DNA of 64,000 bases, from positions 310,001-374,000 of the forward strand of contig CATKHK010000040.1 in NCBI GenBank assembly GCA_949751835.1. The letters are read 5' to 3'. The notes beneath the pieces are model-generated. The model was not told the DNA's origin and ran no database searches. It saw nothing but the letters and a program-made list of their open reading frames with translations. Both the position numbers and the translations under genes were made by a program. Of the stretch, positions 1 through 27,291 are shown piece by piece (position 1 is the stretch's first letter; each line of letters begins with the position of its first letter). The DNA comes from Blepharisma japonicum (lineage: Eukaryota > Ciliophora > Heterotrichea > Heterotrichida > Blepharismidae).

Positions 1-1875
1 AATTAATTGTAAATGTAAAGAATCATAAGGAAACGGAAGAAAATTTGTAAATTTCATTTCTTGTGCTAGAATTAATGAAACTTTTAATACTTGGCTTGCT
101 TTTTCATTAATGTGAAGAATATTGCCAAAAGATTCCTCTGAACAAGAGATAAGCATTGTGCACACGTCTTTACCATATTTATCTAATCTTTTATCTTCGT
201 TTTTTTGGCTATATGCACTTAGCTTATTTTCCCTATTACTGATGTGAACAGCTTCATCAAGATCGCTTAAAACATTTTCTAGAAATCCAATATATAACTC
301 AAGGATTTCTTTCGTCTTATATTTATCGATTATATTTTTATAGCCTTTTTTTAAGCAAGCTATATTAGCTGAAGTTTTGCTAACTAAATTAACAAGTTTT
401 TCGAATCTTGGAACTTTCTGTGAGAGCTCACTTTGTAGATCAATTAAAATATAGCACAATTCTTCGTCCATAGCTTTTATTCTGTTCAATTCTTTTAAAT
501 ATGTCAAATAACTAATATCTGGAAACACGAAAAATCTGTTAGTTGATAATCAATTAAAAATTTTTCATTCCTGGATATCTCCTTCTATAGAAAATGGATT
601 TTTTTGAATTTTTGATAATTTTACTCGGGCAAGTCTTTCATCTTTTATTACATAAAAGTAAAAATTAAATTCTCATATTGCAAAAAGCTTATTTTTTTGG
701 AAATGGCTTAATTCGGAAAATTTTTTAAACAGTTTTATCATTTCTTTGTTGGCTTCTAAATTAGGGTTTGTCAATAAATGGCGAAATTTCAGCTCAAAAT
801 CATATTGATTTTTTGGAATTTCTGCACTTTCTTTTAATTTTAAGGATCTTCATAAAATAAAACGGCAAACTAAATATAAGACAAGAGGCTGCAAAAATAT
901 ATTAAAGTTTACAATAACAGTTGCATTATCCAGCAATCGACCGAATAAAAATATCAATAGGCTTAAAGAAATCGCAGCCATTTTGCTTGATTCTATACAA
1001 TTTTCAAAAATATTGTAATAAGGAAGATATAGCATACTTTTTATCATGAGATAAAATGAATAAATCGAGCCTAAAGTCTGAAGAATAATAACATTCGGAT
1101 TGCCAAAAGTTATATAAAATATACACATCACTACATAAAAAATCTTTTTTTCTAAATCTAGCTCAGCACAAGCTCTAGCTTTTATATTTCTATTGGAATT
1201 TATGTGTTTTATATCACAACTAAAAATTTCAGAAAATATAATTATAGGAGCTAAAAAACAAAAACAGCAAATTACAATAATAATTCCAGCTGGACCATAA
1301 TCCAAACTATCGCTATTTACATCTCCAGAATATTCTTCAATTGTATTGGAAGTTATAATTGAATATTTAAAAGTCATTAATAGGATCATTACACTTGGAA
1401 TAAAACATATAGTGTTTAAAATCCACATAAATTTTTCAAAAACCACGACAAGGAGCATTGGTATCGGCTTTCCAATTTTTAAAAAAATTCCAAAAGCAGC
1501 CAAAAATACCAAGCAGAGTCCAAATAAAGAAGAAGTCCCATAAAAGCAGAAATTCATAATGTAAAAACTTGCACAAATATTATCATAGCTTGAGTAGCTC
1601 AAAGTCGTCCATATAGCCCTATAAGAACTTCAATTAGAAATACGTAGGTTCGGGTACCATACTAAGCAATTCACTTGCAGGGCTATAATAATATTGGTGG
1701 TTATTTCATAAATTATCTGGGTTTTAAATGAAGTGCTCTTGTGGTATTTTATCCTAAAGACCTTTTCAAAAATACTGAACGTGTAATCTTTCAATTTTTT
1801 CCCAATCGACGTATGATTTAAGTAGCCTTGAAACTCATTGCTGCTTTTTCATGCGAAGTCACCTGCAACAAACAT
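1..1875 (-). CDS. Gene A: multi-pass TmcB/PAS-type membrane sensor, N-terminal part (runs off left edge)
   Basis: This is the last (3'-most) member of the six-gene array and only its first 625 codons are present. The chosen ATG at 1875 starts MFVAGDFAWKSSNEF and aligns with the start of gene B. TGA is needed as Trp at several places, for example in QEWKIFNW near 540-570. Visible parts are a cytosolic N-tail, a first membrane helix (about residues 55-72), further hydrophobic helices to about residue 345, the conserved junction LFAIWEFNFYFYVIKDERLAR, the TmcB/TmcC-like helical region containing LELYIGFLENVL, and the beginning of the PAS-like domain (MLISCSEESFGNILHINEKA). The membrane-sensor role is inferred from architecture. 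It is closest to gene B. No break is seen in the part present. Confidence 0.85.
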
Positions 1876-2480
1876 ATTTTATATATTTTACTTTAGACTC
1901 ATTTATTTAGGAACCATATACTTTTTCTATATTTGACGTTTTAAATTCTTATTTTATAAAAGCAGAGTTTATAAAACGATTAACTTTTTAATTTTATGGG
2001 TTGGAGCATTAATTATGTATTAGATAAAGAGATTTAATTTAAATATTGCATGAAATGTAAAAAAGTAAAATCACTATATAAATTATATTTGATAAGAATT
2101 TCACAAGAATACTTTGTAATATAAAATAAGATTTCCAAAGGGTTGAAGCCAAAATATTTGGATTTCACGATTTGATGGGAAAGAAAGATATCATCAGAGC
2201 ATAGCATAGCTATTTTAAAAGGGCAGCTAGAAGAGATTAAAGATCAAAATACTAAGAATTCTTGCCAAAATTATAAATCTCAAACAAAATCTTACAAGAA
2301 AAGGCAGCAGAATAAATTCTATGTTGGTTTAATCATAATAGCAAAGATCTTTTGAAGCCTTCAGCGTGCATTTAATTTTTTTCTAATATATCCATAAAAA
2401 AGCTAGAAAATGCTGCTACTTCCTATTTTATTATTAAATTTGGATTATGTATCAGAAAGTGAACTTTTTTTAATAAATCG
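1876..2480. other. Gene-free stretch between A and the retroelement relic
   Basis: About 600 bases of AT-rich DNA upstream of gene A, which must hold its promoter. I see no reading frame with family similarity. The right part, from about 2150, may belong to the decayed retroelement but is too degenerate to read. Confidence 0.4.
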
Positions 2481-2489
2481 AGTGGAGTA

Positions 2490-3888: not shown

Positions 3889-6800
3889 CTAATTTGCTTC
3901 CATTGACAAAATTATTGGCAAAACTGCAAATTTCTTCAAATTACTGATTTGGTGATTCAAATATGGCAAATAATACAAGAAAAACAGTGCGCACATAGCT
4001 GATGAATAAATAATCATGACATCAATAATAATCTTGAGCTCTCCCTCTATAAATCTTTTTGAATCTCTATCAGCCAAATCGAATTCTTGTCCAATTTCTG
4101 TCTGTATTGCTACAGAATAAGTAACTAAAATCTGAGGGACAAAACTTGGCAGATTTTCGATATGAGAAATACTGATAATTTCAGAAATTAGCCCTATAAT
4201 AGCACTCTCAACCCCATATTTAGAAAAATCCAGTGTTGAGTTCGTTTCATGCTCAAAAGCTCTAGATTTTAGCTCGTCTGACATTAAATCCATAAATTCA
4301 TGATTTCTTAAGAGTTTGACTTGTTCGTATAGGGTTTGTGCAGTTGTTTCTAGCATAATTTTTGAGCTTGGAAATGCATAATTTTTGTTAAAAACACCGA
4401 TAAAATAAGGGGAATAAATATCTCTTGAAAAAATAAGCAGTCTTGATAGCAGTGAACGCTTCAGGTTAAATGTGTTTATAAATTTAGGTCTATTTATCAT
4501 CATAGTTTCACATTTAGGGTATAAATATAGCTGGAGTAATAAATAATAAGAAGCACCTATTCCTAAAAAGATCATGAGCCTTATCATATAGCTTTTATAA
4601 ATTTTTGTTTTTATTGTTTTCTTAATAATCCTGGGTGCATTAGAAGCTGTTTCAGATGAATAATCTACTCCATGTGTTGTGATCAGCCTATCAATGCAAG
4701 CTATTTTTAATTTAACAAGAGATGGTTGAGCATTGTTTAAAATAAAATTTCAATACTCATCATGTTTTCTTGACACAAGAATGATAAATCCAATAACAAT
4801 TAAAACCAAAACTCCTAATGTTGAAAATCCTAGATATAGCAGTGCTTTTATATTCATTCCAGTTGATTTCACTCTATTTACTTCACAATCTACGATTCCA
4901 GTCATTGTTATATTTAAATAGTCTCATGTATATCCTAGTCCATTTATCATTAAAAATCTTGCGTTATCTTCATGGGTTGTATTTGATTTTATTTCTGATA
5001 CAAACGAATTTCCAGTAATAATAAATCTTGAAATAGTATCATAAAGATTTTCATAGATAATATTAAATTGATCTTCATGAAAAAGCCATATTGGAATATA
5101 TGGTTTCACTAAAATATCTGTGTTTGAGCAATATGACCATTTACTAAAATCACTCAATAAATATTTTTGGATATTTTCGAGGTCTTTCATTATGTTGGAG
5201 AAAAATTCTAAATTTTCTGTTTGAGATGAAAAATTTGATTTTGAAATTGCTTGTCTTTCAATTGATCGAGCATAGTCTGAGCTTAAAACAATATCATAAA
5301 GCAGCCTTCCCATGCGATTAAAGGCGCTCATTGACAAAGAGTGAGATACATCTACTACCATATATGCAGCTATTGCTATTACTGTTGTAATTCCTGATAA
5401 TATCTAAGTTTATTTTACCACAAAAAATAAAACCCATTGAAGAATTCTTATCCTTCTTCTTGTTCCTATAAGAAGCTTCTTTGCAAAAACTACATTAAGA
5501 TTACTCTTATTTGGTAAAATATGTTTGGAATGGTCTTCACTATGATGTCTTTCATGTTCTCTTGGGTCCTTTATAATAGAGCTATCAATATTTTGTGTAA
5601 AAATATCAGTTTCAGTTTTGTCCGTGATTTTATGCAAAAAATTAATTTCACCAATTGAAAGATTCGTTAATTCAGATTTTTTCTTTTCTTTTTCTCATTT
5701 ATCCTTATCTTCACTGTCCATATCTTGGTCACTTATCATATCGAAATTTTCTTGTGCTTCTCCTGTTTTTCATTTAGTAATTTCTTCTTCCTTATAAGCA
5801 ACAATTAATATATACACTGAAATTGATTTTATTTTTTTCAGAACTTTTATAAAAGCTAGTTCACGATTTTCTCAAAAAATAATCCATGGCTCATGATTTT
5901 TCATTTTTTCTATACAAAAAAGTGGGACTAAATCTGATAAATTTTGATTTTTTAAAGATTTTTGTTCTTTTCCTATATAATAAGAAAACAATTCTGTATG
6001 AGCTGTAATTATGCCTTCTTCAGAGACTATAGCTACTTGATGATCTATTTTTTTCTGCTGAAAAGAAACTAAAAAGTAAGCAGAATCGTGCAATGCTGTC
6101 AATTTTATTAATAAATTGCATTCTATAAGATACCCTTGCTGGTCTTGAAAAAACAGCTTTTTATGGTCTTCTAATTCAGTTGTATTACATTTTGAAAGAA
6201 AATTCTTTGCAAGCTTTGTATGAAATGAGTCATAAGGAGCCGGAAGAAAATTGGTAAATTTCAGCTCTTGAGATGGAATTAATGAAGTTTTCAAAATGTG
6301 AATAGCTTTTTCATTAATATAAAGAATGCTTCCAAAAGACTCATCTGAGCAAGAAATAAGCATTGTGGCTACTTCTTTGCCATATTTTTCTAATCTTTTG
6401 TCCTCATTTCTTTGATTATATTCACTTATTCCATTTTTCCTGTTAATAATATGGTCAGCTTCATTATAGTTACTTAAAATATTTTCAAGAAATCCTGCAT
6501 ATAGCTCAAAAGTTTCGATTGTCTTGTATTTATCAATTATATTTTTATATCCTTTTTTTATGCAGCTTATATTAGCTGAAATTTTGTGGACTAAATGAAT
6601 GATTTTTTCGATTCTTGACACTCTCTGTGAGAGCTCACTTTGCAGATCAATTAAAATATAGCATAATTCTTCGTCTTTAGCTTTTATTCTGCTCAATTCT
6701 CTTAAATACATTAAATAGCTAATATCTGGAAAAACTATGCATTTGCTAGTAGATAATCAATTAAATATTTTTCACTCCTGAATATCTCCTTCTAAAGAAG

Positions 6801-8082
6801 ATGGGCTATTTTTGATTTTTGATAATTTTACTCTGGCAAGTCTTTGATCTTTTATTACATAAAAGTAGAAATTAAATTCTCATATTGCAAAAAGCTTACC
6901 TTTTTGAAAATAGGTTATTTCAGAAAATTTCTTAAAAAGGTCAAGCACTTGAATTTTTTCTTCTAAATTTGGATTTCCTAATAGATGGCGAAATTTAAGC
7001 TCAAATTCATATTGATTTATTGGGGTTTCTATGTTTTCTTTGATTTTTAAGCACCTGCGCTTAATAAAACGATAAACTAGATATAATGTAAGTGGCTGCA
7101 AAAATATATTGAAGTTTACAATAACAGTTCCATTATCCAGCAAACGGCCGAATAGAAATATTAATAAACTTAAAGAAATTGCAGCCATTTTGCATGATTC
7201 TATGCAATTTTCAAAAATATTGTAATAAGGAAGATATAATATACTTTTTATCATAAGATAAAATGAATAAACCAATGCTAAAATTTGCAATAGAGCAACA
7301 TTTGGGTTACCAAAAGTAATATAAAATACGCACATCACGACATAAAAAATCTTTTTTTCTAAATCTATCTCAGCACAAGCTCTCGCTTTTATATTCCTTG
7401 TAGAATTTATATGCTTTATATCACAGCTAAAAATTTCAGAAAATATAATTATCGGAGCTAAAATACAAAAGCAGCAAATTACAATGATAATCCCAGCTGG
7501 GCCATAATTCAAACTATCACTATTTATATCTGCAGAATATTCATCAATTTTTTGAGCAGTTATAGTTGAATACTTTAAAGTCATTAATAAAATCATTATA
7601 CTTGGAATAAAACATATAGTTCCAAGAATCCATATAATTTTTTCAAAAATCATGATAAGTAATATTGGTATCGGCTTATCTAATTTTAAAAAAATTCCAA
7701 AAAAACCAAAAAGTGCAAGGCATAGTCCTATTAAAGAAGATGTCCCATAAAAGCAAAAATTCATAATATAAAAACTTGCACAAATATTATCGTAGCTTGA
7801 GTAGCTTAAAGCCATCCAGATAGCTTTATACGAGCTCCAATTAGAAATACCTAAATTTGGGTATCATACTAAACTATTTACTTGGAGAGCTATAATAATG
7901 TTTGTCACTATTTCATAGATCATCTGAGTTTTGACTGAAATTCTTCTATGATACTTTGTTCTGAAAACCTTTCCAAAAATGCTGAAAATAAAATTTCCCA
8001 CTTTTTCCCTACAGGCAATGGGGTTTAAATCACCTTGAAATTCATTGCTGGTTTTCCCAGTTAAATCAGCTTCATCAAGCAT
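3889..8082 (-). CDS. Gene B: multi-pass TmcB/PAS-type membrane sensor (1387 aa, 2 introns)
   Basis: Complete: ATG at 8082, TAG at 3889. Introns are 5490-5504 (phase 1) and 5404-5418 (phase 0). Approximate layout: cytosolic tail 1-54; seven or eight membrane helices between 55 and 340; TmcB/TmcC-like helical region 350-570 with FELYAGFLENILSNYNEAD; PAS-like domain 570-690 (MLISCSDESFGSILYINEKA ... FLPAPYDSFHTKL); acidic linker; membrane helix about 878-902 (LQWVLFFV-ILSGITT); an extracytosolic-looking segment with Cys; helix about 1068-1090; helix about 1156-1178 (IFLGIGASYYLLLQLYLYP); a second extracytosolic segment; last helix about 1341-1365. TGA codes Trp in YVW-type positions such as LVWYPN, AIWEFN, QEWKIF and DEYWNF. 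PAS plus paired membrane sensors suggests a receptor; the ligand is unknown. TmcB-like is a family-level call from motif pattern, not a search. Confidence 0.88.
5404..5418 (-). other. 15-nt intron in gene B (site b, phase 0)
   Basis: On the minus strand it reads GTAAAATAAACTTAG, with A at position 10. It contains a stop (TAA) in the running frame. Removing it joins QWVLFFV to ILSGITT, exactly as in intron-less gene D (QWVLFIAILSV). Confidence 0.93.
5490..5504 (-). other. Probable 15-nt in-frame intron in gene B (site a, phase 1)
   Basis: On the minus strand it reads GTAATCTTAATGTAG, with A at position 10. It has no stop in frame, so it is invisible to reading-frame tests. Support is positional: genes C and D have a GT...AG 15-mer at the same place, and splicing gives PNKIFAKKLL, matching SNHAKKLL in gene F. 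Confidence 0.65.
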
Positions 8083-8653: not shown

Positions 8654-11600
8654 CTAATCAGCCTCCATTGACAAAATGGTCGGTAAAATCGCAAATTTTT
8701 TCAGCTTATTAATTTGGCGATTCAAATAAGGCAAATAGTAAAACAAAAACAGCCCACACATAGCTGCCGAATAAACAGCCATTACATCAATAATATTCCT
8801 CAGCTGATCTTCTATCAGCTTTTTAGAGTCTCTATCAGCCAAATCAAATTCCTCGCCTACTTGTCTCTGAATTTCAACAGAATAATTAATTAACTGCTGT
8901 AGCTCTGAAGTTGCCGATAAATTATTATGAGAATAAGACACTAAATCCCCAACTAAAACCATAACTCCATCCTCTATTCCATATGCAGTAAAATCTACTG
9001 TTGAATTTTTTTCATTTTCAAAAATTTTGGTTTTCAGTTCATCTGACATTAAATCAATAAAATCCTGCTTTTTTAGCTCCTGGGCTTGGTTGTCAACAGC
9101 TTTTGCAGTCCTTTCTATCATAATTTTTGAGCTAGGAAAATCATAAGTTTCATTAAAAATTTTGACAAAATAAGGAGAATACGCATCTCTTGAAAATATC
9201 AGCAGCCTTGATAGCAGTGACCGCTCAAGGTTAAAAGTATTTATAAATTTAGGCCGATTTAGCATCATAGTTTCACATTTAGGGTATAAATATAGCTGCA
9301 GCAATAAATAATAAGAGACCCCAATTGCCAAGAATATGGTTACTCTTCATATATAGCTAATATAAATAGTAGTTTTTATAGTTTTTTTTATGTGTTTTTG
9401 TATATCAATTTTAGTTTCCGACGCATAGTCTACCCCATGGGTGGTGATTAGCCTGTCAATGCAAGAAATTTTTAATTTTGCTAATGACGGTCCTGCATAA
9501 TTTAAAACAAAAGTCCAAAATTCATCATGCTTTCTTGACACAAGCATAATAAACGCAATTAATATTAAGTATAAAGCTCCTGAAATAGAAAACCCTACAT
9601 ATATGAAAGCTCTTATATTGCTTCCTGTGGATTTTACTCTATGCAACTCACAATCAGCTACCCCGTCCATCGTTATATAAAAATAATTCCATGTAAACCC
9701 TAACCCGTTTATCATTAAAAATTTAGCATGCTCTTCATAAGTAGAATTTATCAGTGATTCTTCTATTAATGAGTGCCCATTTAATATAAATCTGGAGATT
9801 GTGTTAAAAAGGTTTTCATGGATCATAGTTACCTGATCTTGATTAAAAAGCCATACTGGGATATAAGGGCGTACTAAAATATCTGAATTTGAGCAGTAAG
9901 ACCATTTGCTGAAATCGTCTAATAGGTAGCTTTGAACGTTTTCTAGATCTTCAATGACTGCGGCTAAGCTATTTACATTTGTTTGCAAAGAAGTTTTCAA
10001 TGAAGATGATGAATTTACGGATAATCATAATGAGTCCGCAATTCTATTAATAGACCGAGCTCAGTCTGAGCATAAGCCAATATCATAGAGAAGCTGACCC
10101 ATACGATTAAAAGCACTCATTGAAGTAGAATGAGAAACATCTACTACCATATATGCCGCTATTGCTATAATTGTTGTGATTCCTGATAATATCTATATTA
10201 AATTTACAACAAAAAACAGCACCCATTGTAAAACTCTTATAGTTCTTTTTGACTCTATTAGGAGTTTTTTAGCAAAATCTTAATAAAAAATACGTTTTTT
10301 CGATAAAACATGCTTAGAATGCTCTTCATCAAGCGACCTTTCGTGCTCTTTTTGATCTCTCATCATTGAGCTGTCCATATTTTGTGTAAAAATATCAGTT
10401 TCAGCTTTATCAATAGATTTTACTGAAAAAGTGACCTCCCCAATTGAATGGCATTTAATTTCTGCTCTTTTTCTTTCTTTTTTGTCTGAATAACTTTCTT
10501 CATTATTTTCCACATCTTGGTCACTTATCATATCCAGCTGTTCTTGAGCTTCTCCAGTTTTCCATTTAATAATTTCTTCTTCTCTGTAGGCCACGACTAA
10601 TAAATACACCACTATGGATTTTATTTTTTTTGGGATTTTTATAAAGGCAAGTTCTCGAGTTTCCCAAATAATGATTCAAGGTTCATAGTCTTGCATTTTT
10701 TCTATAGAAAGTGCCGGGATTAAATCTGATAGGTTTTTATTTTTTAATAACTTCTTTTCTTGGCCTACGTAATAAGGAAATAATTCTGTGTGGGACTGTA
10801 TTATGCCTTCTTTTGAAACAATAGCTAGCTGATGATCTACTTTTTTCTGCTGAAAAGATACTAAAAAATAAGTAAAACTGCGAAATGCTGTTAATTTTAT
10901 TAATAAATTGCACTCGATAAGGTAGCCTTGTTGATCTTCAAAAAATAATTTCTTATGGTCTTCTAAGTCTGTTGAATTGCAATTTGTGAGAAAATCTTTT
11001 GTAAGCTTTAAGTGTAAAAAATCATAAGGTGGTGGAAGAAAATTCGTGAATTTTAGCTCTTGGGATGGAATTAATGAGGTTTTTAAAATTTGGATAGCTT
11101 TTTCATTAATATAAAGAATGTTACCAAAAGATTCATCTGAGCAAGAAATAAGCATTGTGGCTACATCTCTGCCATATTTTTCTAATCTTTTGTCTTCAAT
11201 TCTTTGGTTAATTACACTCATTCCGTTTTTTTTACTAGCAATTTGATCAGCTTCATCATAATTGCCTAGGATATCACCAATAAATCCTGCATATAGCTCA
11301 AGGGTTTCTATTGTTTTATGCTTTTCTGTCATACTTTTATATCCTTTTTTTATGATCCCAATGCCATCAGATATATGGTGAACTAAATTAACAATTCTCT
11401 CAATTCTTGGCTTTCGCTGTGAAAATTCACCCTCTAAATCAATTAAAATATAGCACAATTCTTCGTCTTTCGCCCTTACACTGCTTAATTCTATTAAATA
11501 CATCAAATAATTGATGTCTGAAAAAAATACCACTTTTTTATTAATGGAGAGCCAATTAAAGATTTTTCACTCATGGGCATCACCTTCTATAGATGACGAA

Positions 11601-12877
11601 TTTTTCGAAATTTTTGAAAGTTTCACCCGAGCAAGTCTTTCATCTTTTATAACATAAAAGCAGAAATTAAATTCTCATATGGCAAAAAGCTTATTTTTTT
11701 GAAAGTGACTCATTTCTCAAAATTTTTTGAAAAGGCTTAATACTTGTGTTTTGTCTTCTAAATTCGTATTTGTCAATAAATCACGGTATTTTAGCTCAAA
11801 TTCATATTGATTTTTTGGAATATCTGTGCATTCTTTTAATTTTAAGTATCTACGTTTAATCAATCTATAAACCAAATATATTGCGATTGGCTGTAAAATT
11901 ATATTAAAAAGTGCTATCATTGTCGCATTATCCAGCAAATTTGCAAAAAGAAAAATCAGTATACTCAAAGAAATAGCAGTCATTTTGCAAGATTCTATAC
12001 AATTTTCAAAAATATTGTAATAAGGTAGAAATAATATACTTTTTATCATAAGATAAATCGTATAAATCAACGATAATATTTCAAGTAGGACTACATTGGA
12101 TTTTCCTAAAGTTACATAAAATATACACATAACTACATAAAAAATCTTTTTTTCAAAGTCTAATTCAGCACAGGCTCTTGCTTTAACATTTCTGCTAGAA
12201 TTTATATGCTTTATATCACAGCTAAAAACTTCAGAGTAAATACTAATAGGAGCTAAAATGCAAAAACAGCAAATTACAATAAAAATTCCAACCAAGCCAT
12301 AATTTAAGCTATCACTTTTTATGTTTCCAGAATATTCTTCAATTGTATCTGAAGCTATTATTGAATATTTAAAAGTCATTAATAAAATCATAACATTGGG
12401 AATGAAGCATAAAGTCGTCATTATTCATATAAATTTTTCGAAAATTATTATAAGGAATATTGGTATTGGTTTCTCAATTTTCAAGAAAATTCAAAAAATT
12501 GCCAAAAAGGCTAAGCAAAGCCCAAATAAAGATGAAGTTCCATAAAAACAGAAATTCATGATATAAGACTGTGCACAAATGCTATCATAGCTTGAGTAGC
12601 TAAGAAAAAGTCATAAAGGTTGATATGAACTTCAGTCAGTAATCTTTAAATCTGGATATCATACTAAACTATTCAATTGTAGCACAATAATAATGTTAAT
12701 AGTTATTTCGTAAGCCATCTGAGTTTTAATTGAAGTCTTTCTGTTGTATTTTATCCTGAAAATTTTACCAAAAAAGCTTAAAATGCAATTATTCACTCTA
12801 TTTGCAATATTCATTCCTTTTACAAGTTCTCTAAACTCATAACTGCGTCTTTCTACTAATTCATCTGCTTCAAACAT
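8654..12877 (-). CDS. Gene C: multi-pass TmcB/PAS-type membrane sensor (1397 aa if both introns are removed)
   Basis: ATG at 12877 (MFEADELVERRSYEF), TAG at 8654 (...LSMEAD). The domain order is the same as in B, with the TmcB-like LELYAGFIGDILGNYDEAD and the PAS-like MLISCSDESFGNILYINEKA. Between PAS and the first C-terminal helix lies a charged linker rich in Glu, Asp and Lys (MISDQDVENNEESYSDKKE). Intron 10193-10207 is clear. At 10279-10293 the frame meets TAA; this is removed if a 15-nt GT...AAG intron is spliced, giving LSKKHFAKKLL. If that intron is not used, the gene carries a nonsense codon and is a pseudogene or makes a truncated sensor without the C-terminal membrane half. The rest is intact, which favours a live gene. 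It is the closest full-length relative of B. Confidence 0.83.
10193..10207 (-). other. 15-nt intron in gene C (site b, phase 0)
   Basis: On the minus strand GTAAATTTAATATAG, with A at position 10. It contains TAA/TAG in the running frame. Splicing joins WVLFFV to ILSGITT at the same site as in genes B, E and F. Confidence 0.92.
10279..10293 (-). other. Probable 15-nt intron in gene C (site a, phase 1, AAG acceptor)
   Basis: On the minus strand GTATTTTTTATTAAG, with A at position 10. It holds an in-frame TAA. It sits exactly where B and D have 15-nt GT...TAG elements. The acceptor is AAG, whereas all the other introns here end in TAG. Confidence 0.65.
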
Positions 12878-12974
12878 ATTTGTGGAGATATTTATTTAAT
12901 ATTTTATTTTGCATTAATTTGCATAATTTATTAGTTCATAAAATTTTCAAAATAATTATTTAAGCTAATCTCAA

Positions 12975-15900
12975 TTAATACACCTGCCCAGCATTCATAG
13001 GCAAAATTGTAGGTAAAATTGCAAATTTTTTCAATTGTTTGATCTGGCCGTTCAAATATGGTAAATAATACAAAAAATATAATACACAAAGAGAAGCTGA
13101 ATAAATTACTGTCACATCTATAATGATATTCAATTGATTATTTATAATTTCTTTAGAATCATCATCAACAAGGTTAAATTCAAGTCCAATTTCATTTTGG
13201 ATTACTGTGACCTGCTTTAAAAAATTAGCAGTGACATCACCAGGTTGAATGGTAGTCCTGGCGGCCAAGTTTTCTAGATCTCAAGTAATAGTATTAATTG
13301 ACGATTCAGTGCCATAATGAAGTAGTTGCAGGCTCGAGTTACATTTTTCAAATAGCTTGCCCTTCAGTTCTTGAGACATTAAGCTTGAAAATTTATTTTG
13401 TCGGATTTCTTTATTTAATATATTTAATTTGTCCAATGTTTTATTTAGCATGGTATGAGAGTTAGCAAAATCATAGTTAGATGGGTAATTCGAAATGAAA
13501 TAGGGCTGATAAACATCTCTTGAGAAAATGCTTAATCTTGATAGTAATGATCTTCTTGAATTAAAATTGCTTAATAGTTTTGGCCTATTTATCATTGACT
13601 TCTCACAGCTTGGGTATAAAAATCAACCGATTAAAAAATAATAGGATGCTGCTATTGTAAAAAATATCAGTATTCTTCAAGAGTATTTTATGTACAAAAA
13701 CGTTTTAACTTTCCGATTTTTATTCAAATATTTTTCTCTTTCCATTTTCGTATCAAAATTATAATTAATTCCGTGGATAATCATTAACCTTTCAATTGAG
13801 GAAAATTTAAGTTTAGATAATGAGAGTTGAGCATTATTTAGCAAAAAATTTCAAAATTCGTCATGTTTTATTGATACAAGTATTATAAACCCAAGAATAA
13901 TAAATTCAAGAAATATAAGCGCACAAAATCCAATAATCAATAATGCATTTATAATAGACCCATTACTTTTTACTCTAACTATTTCGCATTTTTTTATTCC
14001 TGCCATAGCAATGTCTGTATACTCATAAGCAAAATCTATTCCATTCATGACTAAAAATTTTGAATGATCCTTATAGTTTTCTTTATTATTAATGGTTGCT
14101 ATCAGGCCTTTTCCCTATATATAATTTACATGAAAAATGAACTGTTCTATTGTGTTATACAAGTTTGCATATGAAATTTGTGGAGGCATTTTTTCAAAAG
14201 ACCACAGAGGAACTAAAGATTTATGAAGTATGTCAGCTGAAGAGCAGTAACTCCATTTTGAAAAATCCCCTAAAATATGATTTTCTATATTTTCCAACTC
14301 AGCAATATGATTTTCGTATAAATATATTTGATTTACTAATAAAGGCTCCGAGACGTTCATAAAAATCATTCGATCTAGATTTCTTGTCATATCAGATGCA
14401 GACCCAAGATTATATAATAAATCTCCCATCAATTTAAATGAGCTCATTGATGTAGAATAAGACACGTCACTTACCATGTATCCTAATATCGCGGATACTG
14501 TCACTATAACTGATAAAATGGCAATAAAAAGCACCCATTGTAGCACCTTTATTCTAATTCTTGATTCTGTGAGTAATTTTTTGGCGTAATCTATATAAAA
14601 AATACTTGATTTTGTGGACAATGCTCTTGCACGCTCAAATGACATTGATTTTTCTTCATGGAATTTGTCGTCTTTAGATAATCCTTTAATAAATGAGTTA
14701 TCAATTGATCTGATGGAAGAAGAATAATTTGTTTGCTCCAGTTTTCTTTCATGATGATTGCTTAAATCTGTGGTATTTTCACATGTCACTTCTCTTATTT
14801 CAGAGTGGTCAGTTTGGTTTTCAGTGCTATGTTTTATGTCATTTTCATTTGGGATTATTATTAAAAAATTAATTGTTTTGTCTGATATTGATAAGGTTTT
14901 TCTGGTTATAGTGACTTCTGAGTTTACAAAAAGTTCATTTTCTTGGAGATTTTCAAAATTTAAATTTGGCAATAGATCAGATAATTTTTTGTTATTTAGG
15001 CTTTTTTCTTCTGATTTTAGGTAATAAGGGAAATGCTCAGAATGGCATGCAATAAACCCTTCATCTGTAATAATCGCAGCTTGCTTATTAGTAATCGTTT
15101 TATTAAATGAAATCAAAAAATAGAGGCAGTTGTGAAAAGCAGTCAATTTTATCAATATATTGCACTCTATTAAAAATCCCAGCTGGTCTTTCAGATATAA
15201 ATTTTCGTGACCTTGGACATCAATTGTGTCACAATTTTTCACAAATTTCCTCATAAGCTTATCATGAATAGCATCATAAGGTTGTGGTATAAAATTCATC
15301 AAAAATGTCTCATAAGAACCTGAACCAGAAATTTTTAAAATTTTGGTAGTTTTTTCATTCAAATATAAAATTTTTCCAAATGAATGGGCTGAGCAAGCTA
15401 AAAGCATAATTGCAGTATTTTTGCCATACTCTTCTAAAGACTTCTCCGATTTCTTGTCATATATGTTTAGCCCAGATTTTCTCCTTAAAATTAAATCAGA
15501 TTCTTCTTTATTATTGAGTATATTTTCAAGATAAGTTGAATATATATCATAAGATTCTGGGTTTTTATATTTATTTACCAAATTTTTGTAGCCATTTTGG
15601 ATTGCTTTGACTAAGTTAGAAGTCTGCTTAACGAAATTTATAATTTTATCAATCCTTGGCGATAATGAATAAAATTCTGATTGGAGTTCAACTATCATGT
15701 GACACAAATTTTCGTCTTGATTTTTGATTCTATTAAATTCTTTTAAATATTCTAAATAATTTGTGTCAGGAAATATCTTGCATTTTCTCATAATGAGTCA
15801 GCAAAAAATTCTCCATTCTTGAACTTCTCCTTCAAATGAGGATTTAAACTGCTTTATTTTAGCAAGTTTAATTCTTGCTAATCTTTCATCTTTTACTACA

Positions 15901-17132
15901 AAAACACAAAAATTGAATTCTCATATTACAAAAAGCTTATCTTTTTCAAAAATACTTAATTTTGCAAAATTTTTAAAAAGATCTAAAACTTCAGATTTTT
16001 CAACAAGATTTTCATTTGTAAGTAAATGTCGATATTTTCTTTCAAATTCAAACTGATTTCTAGGCTTGGATATCATATTTGGAAGATTCTTGGTATAATT
16101 CCGAACTAAGCGAATAACTATGATTAAAACTAAGGGTTGTACAAAAATATTAAAAAGAATAATGACAACTGGATTATCCATTATTTGCCCAAATAAAAAA
16201 ATTATTGTGCTTGTCATGACTGAAGCTATTTTTCAATTTGCAATTGAGTTTTGAATAGAGTTATAGTAGCTCAAACTCATTATTCCCCTTAAACAAAGAT
16301 AAAAAGAATATAAAGATACAATAACTTGGTGAATATATATATTATAGCCAGCAAAAATAATATAAGAAATGCACATAAAAACATAAAAAATTCTTCTATG
16401 CAAGTCAAGATTAACGCTAGATCTTGCTTTTATGTTGTATTTTTGATGAGAGTGTTTGACGTCACAACAAAAACTTTCACAAGATAAATTTATAAACACT
16501 AAGGAAAATAAAAATGCAATTCCAAATATAAAGCCAGCTGGACCATAATTTAACTCACTTGCATTTGTAGACCCACTATACTCTGTAATATCTTTAGTAT
16601 TTACAATTGAGTATTTAATAACTAGTAAAAAAATCATTGTACTTGGGATAAAGCAAACCGTTGTTAGCAGCAAAGCAATTTTTCTGGTTACGACTGTAAA
16701 ACGTGCTGATATTTCTTTATCAGCATAAATAGATATTCCAAAAATTGCAAAAGTGACATAGCAAATTCCAATCAATGAAAGTGTTCCATAAAAGCAAAAA
16801 TTCATACTATGGGCTTCGGCACATATTTCGTCATAACTTATAAATCCTATATATAACCAAAAAGTCATATAAGATTCTCAATCAGTTACATTCATTTTTG
16901 GATGCCAGGTAAGTGACGTCAATTGTAATACTATTATAATGCTGAGGGAAATTTCATAAATGACTTGAACTTGAAATTTTGTTTTCCTGCTATATTTCAT
17001 CTTAAAAAGGTGCCCAAAAAAGCCAAAAAAATAGCTTTTAAATTTGTTGGAAAATAATGTCTGGGATAAAAATCGATCATTATCTTTGTTTGCTTTATGG
17101 TTTGAGTTCATTTCTTCCTGGACGGTAAGCAT
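12975..17132 (-). CDS. Gene D: multi-pass TmcB/PAS-type membrane sensor (about 1375 aa)
   Basis: ATG at 17132 (MLTVQEEMNSNHK), TAA at 12975 (...NAGQVY). This is the most open copy: 14115-15791 reads 558 residues without a TGA. It shows the conserved block EVQEWRIFCW, IDKIINFVKQTS, a shortened SYDIYSTYLENILNNKEES, and the PAS-like MLLACSAHSFGKILYLNEKT with IPQPYDAIHDKL. The linker is long and Ser/Glu/His-rich. It lacks the intron used by B, C, E and F at LFFV|ILSG but has the downstream intron of E and F (14115-14129) and the upstream element of B and C (14591-14605), so it is intermediate between the B/C and E/F groups. The C-terminus is a few residues longer than its sisters. Function is inferred as for B. 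Confidence 0.87.
14115..14129 (-). other. 15-nt intron in gene D (site c, phase 0)
   Basis: On the minus strand GTAAATTATATATAG, with A at position 10. It ends the running frame with TAG. Splicing joins QFIFH to GKGLIATINN, aligned with the GK start of the next exon in E and F. Confidence 0.93.
14591..14605 (-). other. Possible 15-nt in-frame intron in gene D (site a, phase 1)
   Basis: On the minus strand GTATTTTTTATATAG, with A at position 10. There is no stop, so unspliced translation gives SSIFYIDYAKKLL. Spliced it gives SNYAKKLL, which matches SNHAKKLL of gene F. It differs from the gene C element at only two bases. Confidence 0.55.
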
Positions 17133-18175: not shown

Positions 18176-21100
18176 TTATTCAGCTTCGATCACTAATATG
18201 GTTGGAAGTACTAAAAGTCTATTAAGCTGCTTCACCTTATAATTGAAATAAGGCAAATAATAGACAAAAAACAGCACACAAACTGCTATAGAGTAAATTA
18301 TTGTAATATTTATCATAGCATTCAATTGATTGCTAATAATATTTTTTGAATCACGATCAGCCAGTGAAAATTCATATAAAATTTCATTATTAACCGCATT
18401 AATCCTTGCAATATAAGGATAATACTCAGCTGCACTTACCGACGTTTTATAAGAAATGCTATAGATTTCATCTGTAATTCCAAAAGCTGAAGCAGCACTT
18501 CCGTACTTTAACAGCTCATTTGACGAATTTGAATTCTTATAAATTCTATCCAATAGTTCCTCAGACATTAAAATGGAAAAATTTTCATCTTTTAGCTCTT
18601 TTATCCTCAGTTTTAAAAGTTCATAGGTTTTATTTAGCATCACTTTTGGATTAGGAAAATCATATGAATTTTGGAAGTTAGAAACCATATACGGACTCAT
18701 GCATTCCCTTGCGAAAATGCTGAGTCTAAAAATTAATGCTCTTTTTGCGTTAAAATTGTTTAAAAGTTTTGGACGTTTTATCATCATGGTTTCGCAGCTT
18801 GGGTACATGTGAAAATATATTAAAAAATAATAAGAAATCGCAATAGCAAAAAATATGAGAATTCTCCACATGAATTTCATATATAAATTTGATTTAACTT
18901 TGCGGACAAAGCGGTTATTTTTAATGGATTCTGAAGGTGCTTCAATGATATACTCAATCCCATGGACTACCATCAATCTGTCAAGTGAGGCAGACTTAAG
19001 CCTTGCCATTGAGATTTGGGCCTTATTTAGCATAAAATTCCAAAAATCGTCATATGTTCGAGACACGAGTGCTGCAAAGCCACAAATTACTAGGATAAGG
19101 AGCACAAGTACAATAATTCCTACAATGATAAGTGCATTGATACTTGAACCTGTCAGCAATACTCTGTTTATTTCACAGTTAATTATTTCATTGGCTGTTT
19201 TATTAGAATAATCAAAAGCATTCGCAATTCCATTCATAAATAAAAACTTCGAATTTGCAGAATAATTTTTTTTCAAAGCCATTTCAGTGGTCATTTGCTT
19301 TCCCTAAATAATGATTACACTTGATATGAATTTACTGACTGTATTATATAGGTTACTATAATCAATCTTCGGCCTCTCTTTCTCAAAATTCCATAATGGT
19401 ATAATAGGTCGTGATATTACTTCAGAGCTATCACAGAAGCTCCATTGTTCAAAATCACCTAAAAGATTCCCTCGGATTACATCTAAATCTTCTAAAAGGC
19501 TAAGAAAGGCCTTCGTGTTGCTATCCTTCTGAGCCTGCGTAGAATTGCTTTTAATTTGTTTTTCTAAAGTCCTGATAGAATCTGTTACAGCTTCTAAGTT
19601 ATATAGAAGCTCGCCAAGATCTCCTAAGGAACTCATTTTTGAAGTATGAGAAACATCTGCTATTATGTAATTTAAAATCCCAACCATTGTAATAATCACT
19701 GATAATATCTAAATATCTTTTACCACAGCAAATAAAACCCATTGGAGAACCCTTACTTTTTGCTTTGATTTTAATAACTTTTGCTTTGAGTGATTTGAAT
19801 AAATGCTTTTGCTGCTTTTTGAAGTAGAAGGTCTTGAGGTGTTTTCTATTTGAATTTCTCCAACTTCTTTGCTGTTAATTAAAAAATCAATTTCTTTAGA
19901 CGAATATTCAATAATTTCATTAAATTTGTTTTTTAATAAGGCTTTTTCGGTCATTTCTTTTCTATAAGCACTCCCAAGGAATTCTGCTTGGTCCTCATTA
20001 TTTCCAATCTCCCACTCATGAATTTCATTATCATTATGAATCATGAGTAAGCAATAAAATGATAACGATTTTATCCCTTTTTTTATCCGCACAAATGCAA
20101 GAGGTCTTTCGTTGATTTTGATGATTTGTGGCTTGTAATCTTGCATTTTTATAATATCAAGGGGAGGAATAATATCGGAAAGAAGGGAATTTTTAAGATT
20201 TTTTGTAGGGTTATTTAAGTAATGGCTTCATAGTTCTGAGTGATTTATTATTATGTTTTCTTCAGAAATTATAGCAACTTGTCTATGAGTTGTGGACCGA
20301 GGCTTAAATGATGCTAAAAAATAAGGAGAACTGTGAAATACAGTCAATTTAATTATGACATTGCACTCTATTAAAAAGCCATCATTCGTTACAAAGCATT
20401 GTGTTTTATGAGAAGCAATGTCTACATTTTTGCATTCCTCTAAAAGATTTTTCATTAATTTCTCATGCAAACTAGCATATGGTAAAGGGATGAAATTTGC
20501 TAGAGAAATCCCACTCGCATTTGCTATGGAAATTTTTAAAATTTGTGAAGCATTTTCATTAATATAGACAATTGTTCCAAAGGCTTCATCTGAGCATGAA
20601 ATAAGCAAAATCCCAACATCTTTTCCATAATTTTCTAAGTTTTGATAGTCGTTTCTGACATTATTAATGTTCAATACATTTCTTTTTCTGTGTATCAAAT
20701 TAGCTTCATCTGCATTATTTACTATGTTTTCCAGAAAACTCGCATAATTATCATAGCATTCAGCGTTTTTATGTATTTCAATTAGCCTTTTATACCCATC
20801 AATAACTTCATCAATATTTTTTCCTGCCTCGTCAACTAAATTCATCAATATTGTAATTCTTGGCTTTCTCAAGCTAAATTCGCTATATAATTTTATCAGT
20901 GTATCACAAATCCCTTCATCCTTAAACTTTACTTTGCTGAATTTTTGTAAAAATTGCAAAAAGCTTATATCTGGAAAATTCTTGCATTTTCCGCTTGTAA
21001 AATATTTAATTATTTTTCATTCTTGAATGTCACCTTCTAGTGAAAAATTTGCTTTAGAAATTTTTGAAAATTTTATTCTTGCCAATCTTTCATCTTTGAG

Positions 21101-22312
21101 TATTGAAATAACAGCATTAAATTCTCATATAACAAAAATTTTATCTTTCTTAAATCCTGGCATATTTCAATAACTCTTATACAAAGCTAAAATTCCTATA
21201 TCATTTTCTTTATTCTCTCCAGTTAGAGCATGTCTGAATTTTCTTTCAAAGTCGAATTGATCATTTGGAATTTCACTATTTTCTTTCAGTTTTTTATATC
21301 TGTGAAATACAAATTTTACAATTAAATAAGCAGCGATCGGCTGTAAAATTATACTAAAAATCATTATAATCTTTGAATTATCCATGATTTCACCAAAAAT
21401 AAAAATTAGTAATGTCAATGAGATTGCAGTAATTTTGCATATTTCAATACTATTTTCTATACTATTGAAATATTGCAAACTTCAAATATTTTTAATAATC
21501 AGATATAAAGATATGACCAATCCTAATATTTGCAGTATTAGAATATTTTCTTTTCCGCATAAGACATAAAGAATACACATAAATAGAAAAAATGCTCTGT
21601 TTTGTAAGCTAACTTGTGAAGAAGACCTTGCTTTTATGTTTTTCTTATGATGTGTATGCCGCATATCACACGAGAAAACTTCAAAAGAAAAATTGAGAAA
21701 AAGCAATATCAAAATAGAGAATAAGGGGAATAAAATCCCAAAGTAACTATAGTTTAAATCGCTTCCTTTGATATTTCCATTATATTCTTCTGTAGAAGAT
21801 GATCCAGTAATTGAATACTTAAAAATATTCAGTATTATCATAAAGCTTGGAACCATCCCAATTGTTGTGAAAAATAGTGAAACTTTTCTTGGAAAAAGGG
21901 TAATTAGTTCAGGTGGATTTTTATTTATTGACACATAATATCCAAAAACAGCTGAAAAAACGACCTCAGATCATATTAATGAGACAGTTCCATAGAAGCA
22001 AAAATTCATTATTCCGAGCTCTGCACAAATAGAGTCATAGCTTAGGTAGCCAAAAATTTCCCAAAAAGGTTTGTAGCTTGATCATTCAGAGATGTGTAAA
22101 TTTGGGTATCAACTTAAGGAAATTACTTGTAAAGCTAAAATGTTATTCATCACAATTTCATATATCAGTTGCCTTTTGCGTGGAGATGTATGGCTGTATT
22201 GGACTTCAAACAGCTGAGCTGAAATACTATATAAAATGATTTTCAGCTTAAAAAGTTTCGATTTTGGGGGAAATTTAAAAGCTGTATTTTCTTTTTCTCA
22301 GGCTGTAGACAT
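18176..22312 (-). CDS. Gene E: multi-pass TmcB/PAS-type membrane sensor (1368 aa, 2 introns)
   Basis: ATG at 22312 (MSTAWEKENTAFKF, with TGA as Trp at codon 5), TAA at 18176 (...LVIEAE). Introns are 19709-19723 and 19304-19318. The TmcB-like region contains AECYDNYASFLENIVNNADEA; the PAS-like domain reads LLISCSDEAFGTIVYINENA and FIPLPYASLHEKL. The linker before the C-terminal helix is Ser-rich (RPSTSKSSKSIYSNHSKQKLL) and could be phosphorylated. The C-terminal half has the paired helices and the FAREC/PYMVSNF extracytosolic block shared with F. E and F form one subgroup, with the same two introns and the same SFKPRSTTHR/QVAIISEENIIIN segment after PAS. Confidence 0.87.
19304..19318 (-). other. 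15-nt intron in gene E (site c, phase 0)
   Basis: On the minus strand GTAATCATTATTTAG, with A at position 10 and TAG in frame. Splicing joins KFISS to GKQMTTEMA. Confidence 0.93.
19709..19723 (-). other. 15-nt intron in gene E (site b, phase 0)
   Basis: On the minus strand GTAAAAGATATTTAG, with A at position 10 and TAG in frame. Splicing joins QWVLFAV to ILSVIITMVG. Confidence 0.93.
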
Positions 22313-23109: not shown

Positions 23110-26100
23110 CTACTCAAGATCCATTATCAATATTGTTGGTAACACTGAAAATCTATCAAATTGCTTCCTTTGATTGTTAAAATACGGTCAATAGTAAAAG
23201 AAAAATAATACAAATACAGCTACTGAGTATATTATAGTAGTATTAACTATCTCATTTAATTGGTCACTTATAATATTTTTTGAGTCCTTATCGGCAAGTT
23301 TAAATTCAGCCAAAATCTCATCTTGGACTGCATTAACCCTCGCAATGTATGGATAATACTCAGGTCCAGTCATTGGGGTTTTAAAGCAAATGACATATAT
23401 TTCTTCAATAATATTAATAACAGAAACATCACTTCCATAATCCAACATCCCAAAAGATGAATTCGTATTTTTATAAATACGGTCTTTCAGCTCTTGAGAC
23501 ATTAAAATAGAAAAATTATCTTCTTTCATTTCCTTGACATTTTGTATTAAATATTCATAAGTTTTATCCAGCATAGTTTTAGCATTTGGAAAATCGTATG
23601 AATTTTTAAAATTATAGCCCATGTAAGGGCTCATGCATTCCCTTCCAAAAATATTTAGTCTTGATATTAGCACTCTTTTTGAGTTAAAATTGTTTAAAAG
23701 CTTAGGTCGTTTTATCATCATATTTTCACAGCGAGGGTACATATAAAAATATATTAAAAAATAATAAGAAGTTGCAATTGTAAAAAATATAAGAATTTTT
23801 CACATAAATTTTATATATAAATGTGATTTTATTCTTCTTATGTTACTACTGCCTTTAATATATTCTGCATTTGTGGTCTCAGAATTATAATCAATTCCAT
23901 GAACAACCATCAATCTATCTATTGAAGATACTTTAAGTTTTGACATAGACACTTGTGCTTTATTTAGCATAAAATTTCAAAATTCATCATATGTTTTTGA
24001 CACTAATACAGCAAATCCTAAAACCACAAAAAATAAAACACCTAAGGCCAATAGTCCTGAAATTATCAGTGCATTTATGTTGGCTCCTGTGGATAAAATT
24101 CTATATATTTCACAGTCTACAATATCATAAGTAGTCCTATTTGTGTAATCAAAAGAGTCTGAGATACCGTTCAAAAATATGTATTTTAAGTTAGATAAAT
24201 AGTCTTTATTCAATTTAATATTACTGATGAATTTTTTTCCCTAAATAAAGATTACTTCAGCAATAAAGCTAGAAATCCCGTTATAAAGATTTTCTTTCTC
24301 AATTGTTGGAATATTTCCATCAAAATTTCACGTTGGGATAATTGGTTTTGAAATAATTTTTGAGCTATCACAAAAGCTCCATTCCTTGAAATGATCCAAA
24401 AGTACATTTTGGATGACTTCTAAATCATTTAAAATACTGAGAAAATAATTTATGTTGATATTTTTTTGAGCTTGTGATGATGTGCTATTTGCTTTTACTT
24501 GTCTATCAATTGTCCTAGACCAATCTGTAATAGTTTCATAATCATAAAGAAGTCTCCCAAGATCTCCTAAAGAGCTCATTTTGGAAGTGTGAGAAACATC
24601 TGAAATTATATAGGAAAGAATTGCCACCATTGTAACAATGACTGAGAAGATCTAATTTTTTCTTACGACAATCAATAGTGCTCATTGAAGCATCCATATT
24701 TTTCTTTTTGATAAAAATAATAATTTCTTTGCATGATTTGAGTTAACATTAATGCTACTTCTTGATGAAGAACGCTTAGACGTGCTTTCTAATTGAATTT
24801 CTATTTTTTTGTCTTCTGATATTGACAGAAATGCATTTTGAGTCAAAGTATCAGTTTCTCTGTCATGCTTCTTTGGCGAAGTATCATAGCCAGATAAAAT
24901 AAAGCTGTTTAAATTTCCCAAACTTTTATAATGAGCCGAATTATTTGTATTTTCCGTATAAAAGTTCTGTAGCTGGTCTTCGTCTTCTCCTAGCTGCCAT
25001 TGGCGAATTTCGTTTTCATTGTGAATTACTATTAAAAAATAAAACGTTACCGATTTTATTATTTTTTTGATACGAACCAGTGCAAGCGGCTGATTGTTGA
25101 CGTTACGAACTACGGGGTCTAAGTCTTGCATTTTTGTAATATAAATTCTTGGAATAATATCAGTAAGAAGGATGTTTCGCAAGTTTTTTGCTGTGCTGCC
25201 TAAATAGTGACCAAAGAATTCTGAACTGTTTATTATGATATTTTCTTCAGAAATTATAGCAACTTGCCGAGTTGTTGATCGAGGTTTAAACGATACCAAA
25301 AAATAAGCCGAGTCATAAAATGCTGTCAAATTTATCATTGTATAGCACTCTATTAAAAACCCATCATTTGCTTGCAAACATAGAGTTCTATGTGAAGGGA
25401 TATCTACCCTCCCTGATTCTTTCAAAAAAGTTTTCATCAATATATCATGCATTCGACCAAAAGGATGTGGAATAAAATTTGCCAAAGGGATTCCTACAGT
25501 ATTTGCTATTGAAGTTTTCAATACCTGTGAAGCCTTATCATTTATATAGCAAATCGTCCCAAAAGTTTCTTCCGAGCAGGAAATAAGCAGCACCCCAACA
25601 TCTTTTCCATAAGTTTCTAGACTTTGGTATTCCCCATGAAAATTATTAAAATTTAAAACATTTTTCTTCCTGTGGATTAAATTGGCTTCATCTATGTTAC
25701 TTACAATATTTTCAAGAAAGCTTGCATAATTATCATAGGATTCTGCACTTTTATACTTTTCGATAAGTTTTTTATAGTCATCAGTAACATTATCAATATT
25801 ATCCCCTGTCTTATACACTAAATTTATCAGTTTTTTAATCCTTGGCTGTCTGGAGCTAAATTCATTACACAACTGTATTAATATATTGCAAATCACTTCA
25901 TCCTTCTTTTTAATTTTGCTAAATTTCAACAAAAACTCCATAAAACTAGTGTCTGAAAACTTGTGGGAGTCTCCGTGCTTAAGCCAAGTAAAAATTTTCC
26001 ATTCTTGGACGTCTCCTTCGATAGAAAATTGTGCCTTTGAAATTTTTGAAAATTTTACCCTTGCAAGCCTTTCATCTTTAAGTATTGAAGTACATACATC

Positions 26101-27291
26101 AAATTCCCATATTAAAAATAGCTTATTTTTCTTAAATTGATGAGCATTTCAATAATTTGTAAATAAATTTAAGGTTTCAGCTGCCCCAATATCATACTTT
26201 CTTGTAAATAAATGTCTGAATTTTCTTTCAAATTCAAACTGATTTCTAGGATTTTCAGGATTTGCTTTTAGTTTTTTATATCTATATGATACAAATTTTA
26301 TTGTAAAATACAATACTATTGGCTGCAAAATTATATTGAAAACTATAATAATTTCTGCATTGTCCATGATTTCCCCAAATAGAAAAATTAGCAATGCTAT
26401 TGAAATGGCAGCCATTTTATAAATTTGTATGCAGTTTTCGATCACATTAAAATATTGCAAAACGTAAATACTTTTTATCATCAGCCCAAAACTTATAATA
26501 AATGCTGATATTTGCAGACCTGAGATGTTATCTTTTCCAAATGAAACATAAAATATACACATGGCAATATAAAAAGTTTTTCTTTGCAAATCTAATTCTG
26601 ATGAAGATCTTGCTTTTATATTGGATTTGTGGTGAGAATGCTTCATATCACATATAAAAAATTCATAAAGAATATTAATAAAAATCAACAAAATCATAGA
26701 AAATAGTGAAAAAAATATCCCAAAAGGCCCATAATTGAAATCTTCAGCCTTAATTCCATTATCATATTCTTCTATATATTCTGCATTAATTATAGAATAT
26801 TTAAAAATCATAAGCATTATCATGAAACTTGGTATAATTCCTATTGAGGCAAAAATATGGGCTATTCTTATTGGGATAAAAGTGAGAATTTTTGGAAGGG
26901 TTTTATTTAAATAAGTATAAATTCCAAAAACTAACAAGAAAATCATTTCAACACATATCGCAAACGCGGTTCCCCCAAAACATAAATTCATTATACCTAA
27001 ATCTGCACAAATCGAATCATAGCTGATGTATCCTATAATTCTTAATGGGGTTATAAAGCTCGACCAGTTAGAGATGTTTAAATCTGGATATCAAGCTAAT
27101 GAAACAATTTGTAGGCTTAAAATTATATTCAAAAATACTTCAAAAATTGCTTGCTGTTTTAACTGAGGCTTAGAGCCGTATTTTGCCACAAAAAGTTGGC
27201 TTAAAATGCTGTATGCAAACTTTTTCAGTTTTCGATAGGGCGTTGACTTTACTGTGAACTCTTGTGCGTGTGCATTCTCTAAGGCAGTCAT
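23110..27291 (-). CDS. Gene F: multi-pass TmcB/PAS-type membrane sensor (1383 aa, 2 introns), first gene of the array
   Basis: ATG at 27291 (MTALENAHAQEFTVK), TAG at 23110 (...ILIMDLE). Introns are 24652-24666 and 24241-24255. The N-terminal membrane part includes IMNLCFGGTAFAICVEMIF; the conserved block is QEWKIFTWLKHG, with TGG where A, B, C and E have TGA. The TmcB-like region has ESYDNYASFLENIVSNIDEA; the PAS-like domain reads LLISCSEETFGTICYINDKA and FIPHPFGRMHDIL. The post-PAS linker is the longest and Ser/Asp-rich. The C-terminal half shows DVSHTSKMSSLGDLG after the first helix and a Cys-containing extracytosolic segment. It is the sister of E. The upstream gene G reads away from it. 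Confidence 0.87.
24241..24255 (-). other. 15-nt intron in gene F (site c, phase 0)
   Basis: On the minus strand GTAATCTTTATTTAG, with A at position 10 and TAG in frame. It differs from the site-c intron of E by only two bases. Splicing joins SSFIAE to GKKFISNIK. Confidence 0.93.
24652..24666 (-). other. 15-nt intron in gene F (site b, phase 0)
   Basis: On the minus strand GTAAGAAAAAATTAG, with A at position 10 and TAG in frame. Splicing joins QWALLIV to IFSVIVTMVA. Confidence 0.93.

Follow-up and report, generated by a model that had tools for sequence, protein, structure and literature searches.

The analysed stretch of DNA, hereafter the window, comprises 64,000 nucleotides of the Blepharisma japonicum genome and corresponds to positions 310001-374000 of contig C40 in a 45.2 Mb assembly of 224 contigs. 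Its first part is occupied by an array of genes encoding large membrane proteins of the TmcB type. Reading TGA as tryptophan opens long reading frames in this DNA, and a splice-aware model places introns of 15-16 nt with GT...AG ends in them. In Blepharisma stoltei, UGA encodes tryptophan and introns are mostly 15 and 16 bp long, according to the available sections of the report on its genome of 41 Mbp, 64 sequences and 25,711 genes (PMC9942806). Positions 1-27291 of the window contain five complete genes, B-F, encoding proteins of 1368-1397 amino acids, and a sixth gene, A, which is cut by the window edge; all of them lie on the minus strand. The N-terminal part of gene A occupies positions 1-1875. 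Its in-window model ends artificially, since the window start cuts the gene; the whole gene encodes 1390 amino acids and is located at C40:307688-311875. Gene B (3889-8082, 1392 amino acids) contains the intron 5404-5418, and gene C (8654-12877, 1397 amino acids) the introns 10193-10207 and 10279-10293. They are followed by gene D (12975-17132, 1380 amino acids) with the intron 14115-14129, gene E (18176-22312, 1368 amino acids) with the introns 19304-19318 and 19709-19723, and gene F (23110-27291, 1383 amino acids) with the introns 24241-24255 and 24652-24666.

A first-pass annotation of the window had described a six-gene, same-strand array of near-equal gene lengths. The array is real, and the start of gene F at 27291 coincides with the end coordinate proposed for it. 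Its size has to be corrected: six genes are found in the window, the actual array comprises nine, and the three additional genes (U1-U3) lie beyond the low end of the window. The full array extends over C40:292714-337291, encodes proteins of 1368-1408 amino acids and borders unrelated plus-strand genes. No other gene of at least 150 amino acids is predicted between the nine paralogs, and such a run of adjoining paralogs without an intervening predicted gene of that size is beyond chance. The window genes show pairwise identities of 41-75% (gene A by its in-window part only), with 67.7% between B and C. Each array gene contains one or two introns, which recur near residues 862-898 and 994-1026, and paralogs outside the array are interrupted at the same spots (family-profile positions of about 890 and 1020). 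A tree built from 36 N-terminal rows unites the nine array genes and four rows from contig C58 (which holds 32 family loci) in one group with a support of 100/100; the nine array genes alone are not one clade. The local groups U1-U3, A-B-C and E-F fit tandem duplication.

The array proteins share one domain order. About eight membrane helices come first, and TPR_TmcB (PF25474) and a PAS domain follow; behind these lie a second PAS-like stretch with weak support, a linker, and four helices that frame two presumably outside domains of about 165 residues. Helix count and charge were derived from family-average hydropathy, with 32 rows for the N-terminal part and a 28-row alignment for the C-terminal part; in the single proteins B-F, six to eight N-terminal and four C-terminal helices exceed a fixed hydropathy threshold. 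Gene F may serve as the example, the borders of its eight-helix part, TmcB region and two outside domains being of our choice. The eight predicted helices occupy residues 48-331 (26299-27150, minus strand, as for all features of this gene). They carry positive charge on the predicted inner side, both ends of the module are predicted to be cytosolic, and a large cytosolic stretch follows. It begins with a helical region at residues 332-552 (25636-26298), which contains TPR_TmcB by profile match, with the best stretch at residues 449-542. The PAS domain covers residues 553-672 (25276-25635) and places His615 in the column of the FixL histidine; it is recognised through the family profile and paralogs and not in F alone. 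Residues 673-765 (24997-25275), at the start of the linker, possibly hold a second, degenerate PAS domain. The hhalign comparison of this region (PAS2) with the first PAS domain (PAS1) gave a P value of 0.0016 with 32 columns in register, at an HHalign probability of only 15.8%. The four C-terminal helices are spaced by 167, 70 and 163 residues in the 28 rows. Hydropathy places the first predicted outside domain at residues 893-1066 between helices 9 and 10 (24064-24600, including the intron 24241-24255) and the second at residues 1176-1336 between helices 11 and 12 (23254-23736). Two cysteines in the first outside domain and one in the second are kept in all nine array genes.

TPR_TmcB was detected in 32 of 32 N-terminal pieces at an expectation value (E) of at most 0.1. 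When the N-terminal pieces from the window were scanned singly, F, D and B (32.2, 30 and 31.7 bits) passed the 27-bit cut-off of PF25474, and E (26.2 bits) and C (23.0 bits) failed it. In the genome scan A (32.7 bits at C40:310214), B, D, E (30.3 bits) and F passed, and C is absent from the listing. At the same E threshold, PAS_9 was found in 16 and PAS in 15 of the 32 N-terminal members. The 32-row family profile matched the PAS domain of FixL among PDB sequences at 4.4e-4; its membrane part had no match there. The proteins had been annotated as TmcB-like, PAS-containing, likely sensors in which two membrane modules flank a cytosolic PAS domain. The TmcB assignment, the order of the parts and the 8 + 4 helices around a TmcB-PAS core, cytosolic by hydropathy and charge, agree with this description. 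The PAS domain is clear in the family profile and in some paralogs; in the window proteins taken singly it falls below the Pfam cut-off, as in E with 15.1 bits, or is absent. As a separate observation, a T-Q pair is present in the variable linker (residues 806-826 of F and equivalents) of seven of the nine array genes, the exceptions being D and E; it might belong to a site for docking or phosphorylation.

The family extends far beyond the array. The genome searches scored the best candidates only, and the family counts are lower bounds. From 174 candidates, of which 150 were scored, PF25474 gave at least 146 matches in the genome, 140 of them above the cut-off; the 14 prokaryotes that served as controls gave none. 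Two C-terminal halves used as queries returned at least 109 and at least 111 genome matches, and those of two non-array relatives at least 15 and at least 24, several per gene. Merging these results yields at least 178 loci, distributed over 43 contigs. A TmcB match is accompanied by a correctly spaced C-terminal match in 133 of them and stands without a partner in 13; the other 32 have a C-terminal match but no TmcB match. The count includes 12 places entered by hand from the searches with non-array C-terminal halves, the other rows there having been omitted as further pieces of these places or of genes counted before. The largest runs of neighbours less than 8 kb apart are found on C58 (30 loci), C38 (19), C57 (14), C50 (12), C56 (11) and C40 (9). 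A few family loci carry TAA or TAG stops; these may be pseudogenes.

The domain order, described at first as unusual, recurs in the relatives of the array. The translations of the non-array loci L044, L045 and L046 contain the N-terminal membrane part, TPR_TmcB above the cut-off, PAS (weak in L045 and above the cut-off in the other two), the linker and four spaced C-terminal hydrophobic peaks. Among the 13 TmcB loci of 146 without a C-terminal match, two were partly read, L028 and L030. They show the usual layout as far as the first outside domain, with TmcB above and PAS below the cut-off and the first C-terminal helix. Five genes on contigs C75 and C15, which entered the count through their C-terminal match (E 3.2e-14 to 7.1e-9), have the same order by eye. 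Four C-terminal peaks are seen in the three with computed hydropathy, and in the three scanned no TPR_TmcB match was obtained and PAS was below the cut-off or missed. Unlike the array genes, L044-L046, L028 and L030 belong to groups of no more than two or three close relatives and not to long arrays. L044 and L046 further differ by open frames of 1730 and 1709 amino acids, a long acidic linker and a clearer FixL-like PAS domain, and L044-L046 share 15-20% identity with F or B. Because these relatives share the layout, the order is general to the family: it is the normal family plan in this genome and is not peculiar to the array.

In L044, L045 and L046, short cytosolic stretches with W and IP follow helix 10 and helix 12 and look alike by eye, as if the C-terminal half had been duplicated. 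The profile test of this duplication, in which helix 10 and its tail were aligned with helix 12 and its tail, was not significant (hhalign P 0.06), and the duplication was not accepted. A search for a duplication within the eight-helix module found nothing (P 0.076 over 17 columns).

All nine gene models of the array are intact. The whole-gene ratio of nonsynonymous to synonymous change (dN/dS), computed by the Nei-Gojobori method, is 0.12-0.23 in seven close pairs; synonymous change is high in most pairs, hence the values are rough. The seven pairs are under purifying selection, and the intact models together with these ratios argue that the copies are used. Mean identity among the nine genes is 50-53% in the eight-helix, TPR-like and PAS1 regions and 42-43% in the outside domains. 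In U1-U3, the nonsynonymous change (dN) of the second outside domain amounts to 0.37-0.44, compared with 0.13-0.23 in the other tabulated regions. The lower conservation of the outside domains and the high dN in U1-U3 are as expected if ligand specificity diversifies; the fast second outside domain is the pattern of this one branch. The large tandem arrays and the outside domains, less conserved than the cytosolic core, could also be read as the mark of structural or cell-surface proteins, such as cell recognition or mating factors, whose expansion would create surface diversity. Dictyostelium tmcB is said to concern sexual development in the accessible part of one report (PMC8516963), which would agree with such a role. 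A mere surface tag, however, would not need the strongly constrained cytosolic TmcB and PAS core, and we regard this explanation as highly unlikely.

No kinase, cyclase or other output domain was recognised in the family members in searches against Pfam, NCBIfam and PDB sequences, in agreement with the first-pass annotation, which had listed no known output domain. Pfam and NCBIfam gave no match to a histidine kinase or methyl-accepting signalling domain, and the FixL and DosP matches, which stay below the cut-off, fall within PAS only. No seven-transmembrane profile of Pfam matched the N- or C-terminal members, in which 8 + 4 helices are predicted instead of seven, and no class III cyclase domain was matched within the N- or C-terminal family pieces. 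With the C-terminal half, each Pfam family was hit in at most 6 of the 28 members, in no case convincingly. NCBIfam returned nine families, every one in a single member (best E 0.015), and the C-terminal profile had nothing under E 1.8 among PDB sequences. Homology of this half to a characterised channel or enzyme was thus not found in the three libraries. Weak matches of family members to Orf78, AC_N, Bestrophin-like, LPG_synthase_TM, RasGEF and Na/Ca exchanger models, in one to six members each, were taken as noise. The genome contains 87 class III cyclase matches, none of which lies less than 30 kb from a counted family locus on the same contig; a cyclase fusion elsewhere in the family is therefore unsupported. 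The cyclase matches, which lie at C40:25162-40205, on C29, C70, C86 and C106, and on others, mostly form pairs with a distance of about 1.5 kb, a pattern known from cyclase genes with twin domains, and several are clustered.

A protein without a recognised catalytic domain might itself be the effector. As a ligand-gated channel or transporter, it would use the eight-helix module as the path of an ion or solute and gate it via PAS and the TmcB helices by the C-terminal sensor half, and no downstream enzyme would be needed. The good conservation of the eight-helix region, with 50% mean identity in the nine genes and a dN/dS of 0.07-0.21 in the seven pairs, would suit this function. Against it, no channel or transporter among the Pfam, NCBIfam and PDB sequence entries gave an accepted match to the membrane part. 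The one NCBIfam exchanger match (E 0.047, one of 32 members) was discounted as noise, and the link of tmcB to cyclic AMP (cAMP) signalling (PMC8516963, as far as its accessible text goes) points elsewhere. We consider a channel or transporter unlikely.

We propose that tandem duplication gave rise to the array as a branch of a TmcB-type receptor family, whose members would be orphan, probably chemosensory receptors with their output in trans; the chances of this reading seem to us about even. Each protein is predicted from hydropathy and charge to pass the membrane about 12 times, with both ends in the cytosol. The two outside domains of the C-terminal half would bind or feel external cues, and the four C-terminal helices would transmit movement to both linker and PAS region; the latter may read an internal ligand too. 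The signal would then reach the TmcB helical region and the N-terminal eight-helix module. The output would be exerted in trans on separate effectors, cyclic-nucleotide signalling being the first candidate. Since no enzyme is recognised in the family and 87 cyclase matches lie elsewhere in the genome, signalling in trans to cyclic-nucleotide enzymes appears to be the most economical reading. In Dictyostelium, tmcB acts in cAMP signalling, according to the accessible part of PMC8516963.

Several observations weigh against this proposal. The link between tmcB and cAMP consists of a few sentences in a paper on another organism (PMC8516963, available part). PAS2 and the linker, with mean identities of 39% and 30%, vary more than the outside domains. 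The dN of the second outside domain is 0.14 in A-B, 0.24 in A-C, 0.27 in B-C and 0.19 in E-F, with no fast change in A-B and E-F, and faster change may equally mean weaker constraint. N-glycosylation sequons show no enrichment over shuffled sequences in either outside domain (21 versus 21.2 and 17 versus 15.8), so the predicted sidedness rests on hydropathy and charge. A broader form of the proposal would make the TmcB family, with its at least 178 loci, this heterotrich's chief sensory repertoire of twelve-helix receptors. In these, two outside domains and PAS, heme-binding in some branches, would jointly control a novel eight-helix output, which would work either as a channel or in trans on enzymes of cyclic-nucleotide signalling. 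This form would imply a eukaryotic receptor class without a described mechanism, and we hold it as tentative and rather doubtful.

A lead on heme sensing comes from the PAS domain of L044. Among PDB sequences, 14 distinct entries match it at E≤0.1, the best at 6.3e-8; 13 of them are FixL or DosP constructs and thus stem from a small number of different proteins. In each of four alignments, with FixL in every case, a histidine of L044 stands opposite the histidine that serves FixL as heme ligand. NCBIfam gave FixL matches of 1.2e-8 and 6.8e-9 and DosP matches of 4e-5 and 5.4e-6 for L044 and L046. The histidine is found in the FixL column in all nine array genes, U1 and U3 differing elsewhere in the motif, and in 22 of 31 family rows, row A having been dropped from this count because its in-window piece as aligned lacks that residue. 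The five C75 and C15 genes carry it by motif. The proteins might thus be gas or redox sensors in which PAS1 binds heme via the conserved histidine, as in FixL and DosP, and reports oxygen, nitric oxide or carbon monoxide to the membrane modules. Yet the PAS regions of F and B, the two window regions scanned, match neither FixL nor sensory_box in NCBIfam. In L044 and L046 sensory_box (1.1e-10 and 2e-11) outscores FixL, whose 34-35 bits are far under the model cut-off of 850. The PAS domain of L022 has no FixL match in PDB and one of just 0.051 in NCBIfam, and that of a C15 gene has none in either. The histidine is absent from 9 of the 31 rows, and the motif was not found in the portions read of L028 and L030. 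PAS domains without heme can likewise carry a histidine at the FixL position. Heme sensing by the array proteins is kept as a lead and judged distinctly unlikely. FixL and DosP resemble the family in that the L044 PAS domain is closest to them among solved structures by sequence and the array keeps the histidine column. They differ from it in their output, as no histidine kinase or phosphodiesterase was found in the family, and in that the scanned array PAS regions have no FixL match.

Among known systems, the closest is the TmcB/TmcC family itself (PF25474, with Dictyostelium tmcB), whose members resemble the array proteins as membrane proteins with a TPR_TmcB region and PAS, the likeness being established via the Pfam profile. 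The difference lies in the large tandem expansion to at least 178 loci in the present genome. In the literature searched, which was covered in part, no report of a TmcB expansion in ciliates was found. The repertoires of G-protein-coupled receptors in ciliates are comparable as a big membrane-sensor family expanded in heterotrichs. The available part of PMC9960496 gives 123 such receptors for Stentor coeruleus, the largest set in that study, against the at least 178 TmcB-family loci found here. The TmcB proteins differ from them by about 12 predicted helices, PAS and TmcB regions and the lack of a seven-transmembrane match. The array is a slice of a named family, its layout is present in non-array members, and tmcB has been tied in print to cAMP signalling. 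The suggestion of an undescribed sensory system is thus too strong, and the array is better described as a branch, expanded here, of a family that has a name but has hardly been studied; its interest lies in its scale, its constraint and the missing output.

Ciliates are large, behaviourally rich single cells, and their sensing of chemicals and mates is, in our judgement, little resolved. A 2024 study of the Blepharisma gamone 1 mentions "putative receptors" in its accessible text, and its reference list names a 2009 report in which the gamone 1 receptor was studied with an antibody (PMC10892320). A constrained, tandemly expanded, receptor-like family provides a concrete candidate set for ciliate sensing, and since no enzyme is recognised in it, its output can be put to a direct test.

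Several other genes in the window and the genome were noted. A protein with calponin-homology domains is encoded at positions 36874-39066 by a gene with one intron; its larger C-terminal exon was scanned and matches PF00307 in two stretches (2e-15). The gene at 48240-51542 encodes an 1100-amino-acid protein of the CD36 family (PF01130, 3.5e-42), which exceeds the 463-position model. Positions 51687-63335 contain a second local family of seven predicted genes, which are alike by eye. Five of them are on the minus strand; the two plus-strand members (57956-59887 and 61305-63335) have cysteine-rich tails. Three of the seven were scanned; 61305-63335 gave nothing at E≤0.01 in Pfam, and the other two match the BMT beta-mannosyltransferases (5.1e-21 and 3.2e-17). 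Outside both the window and the TmcB family, the locus L005 (C105:70845-74117) combines GAF and PAS domains, and its GAF domain matches cyclic-nucleotide phosphodiesterases and a cyclase in PDB.

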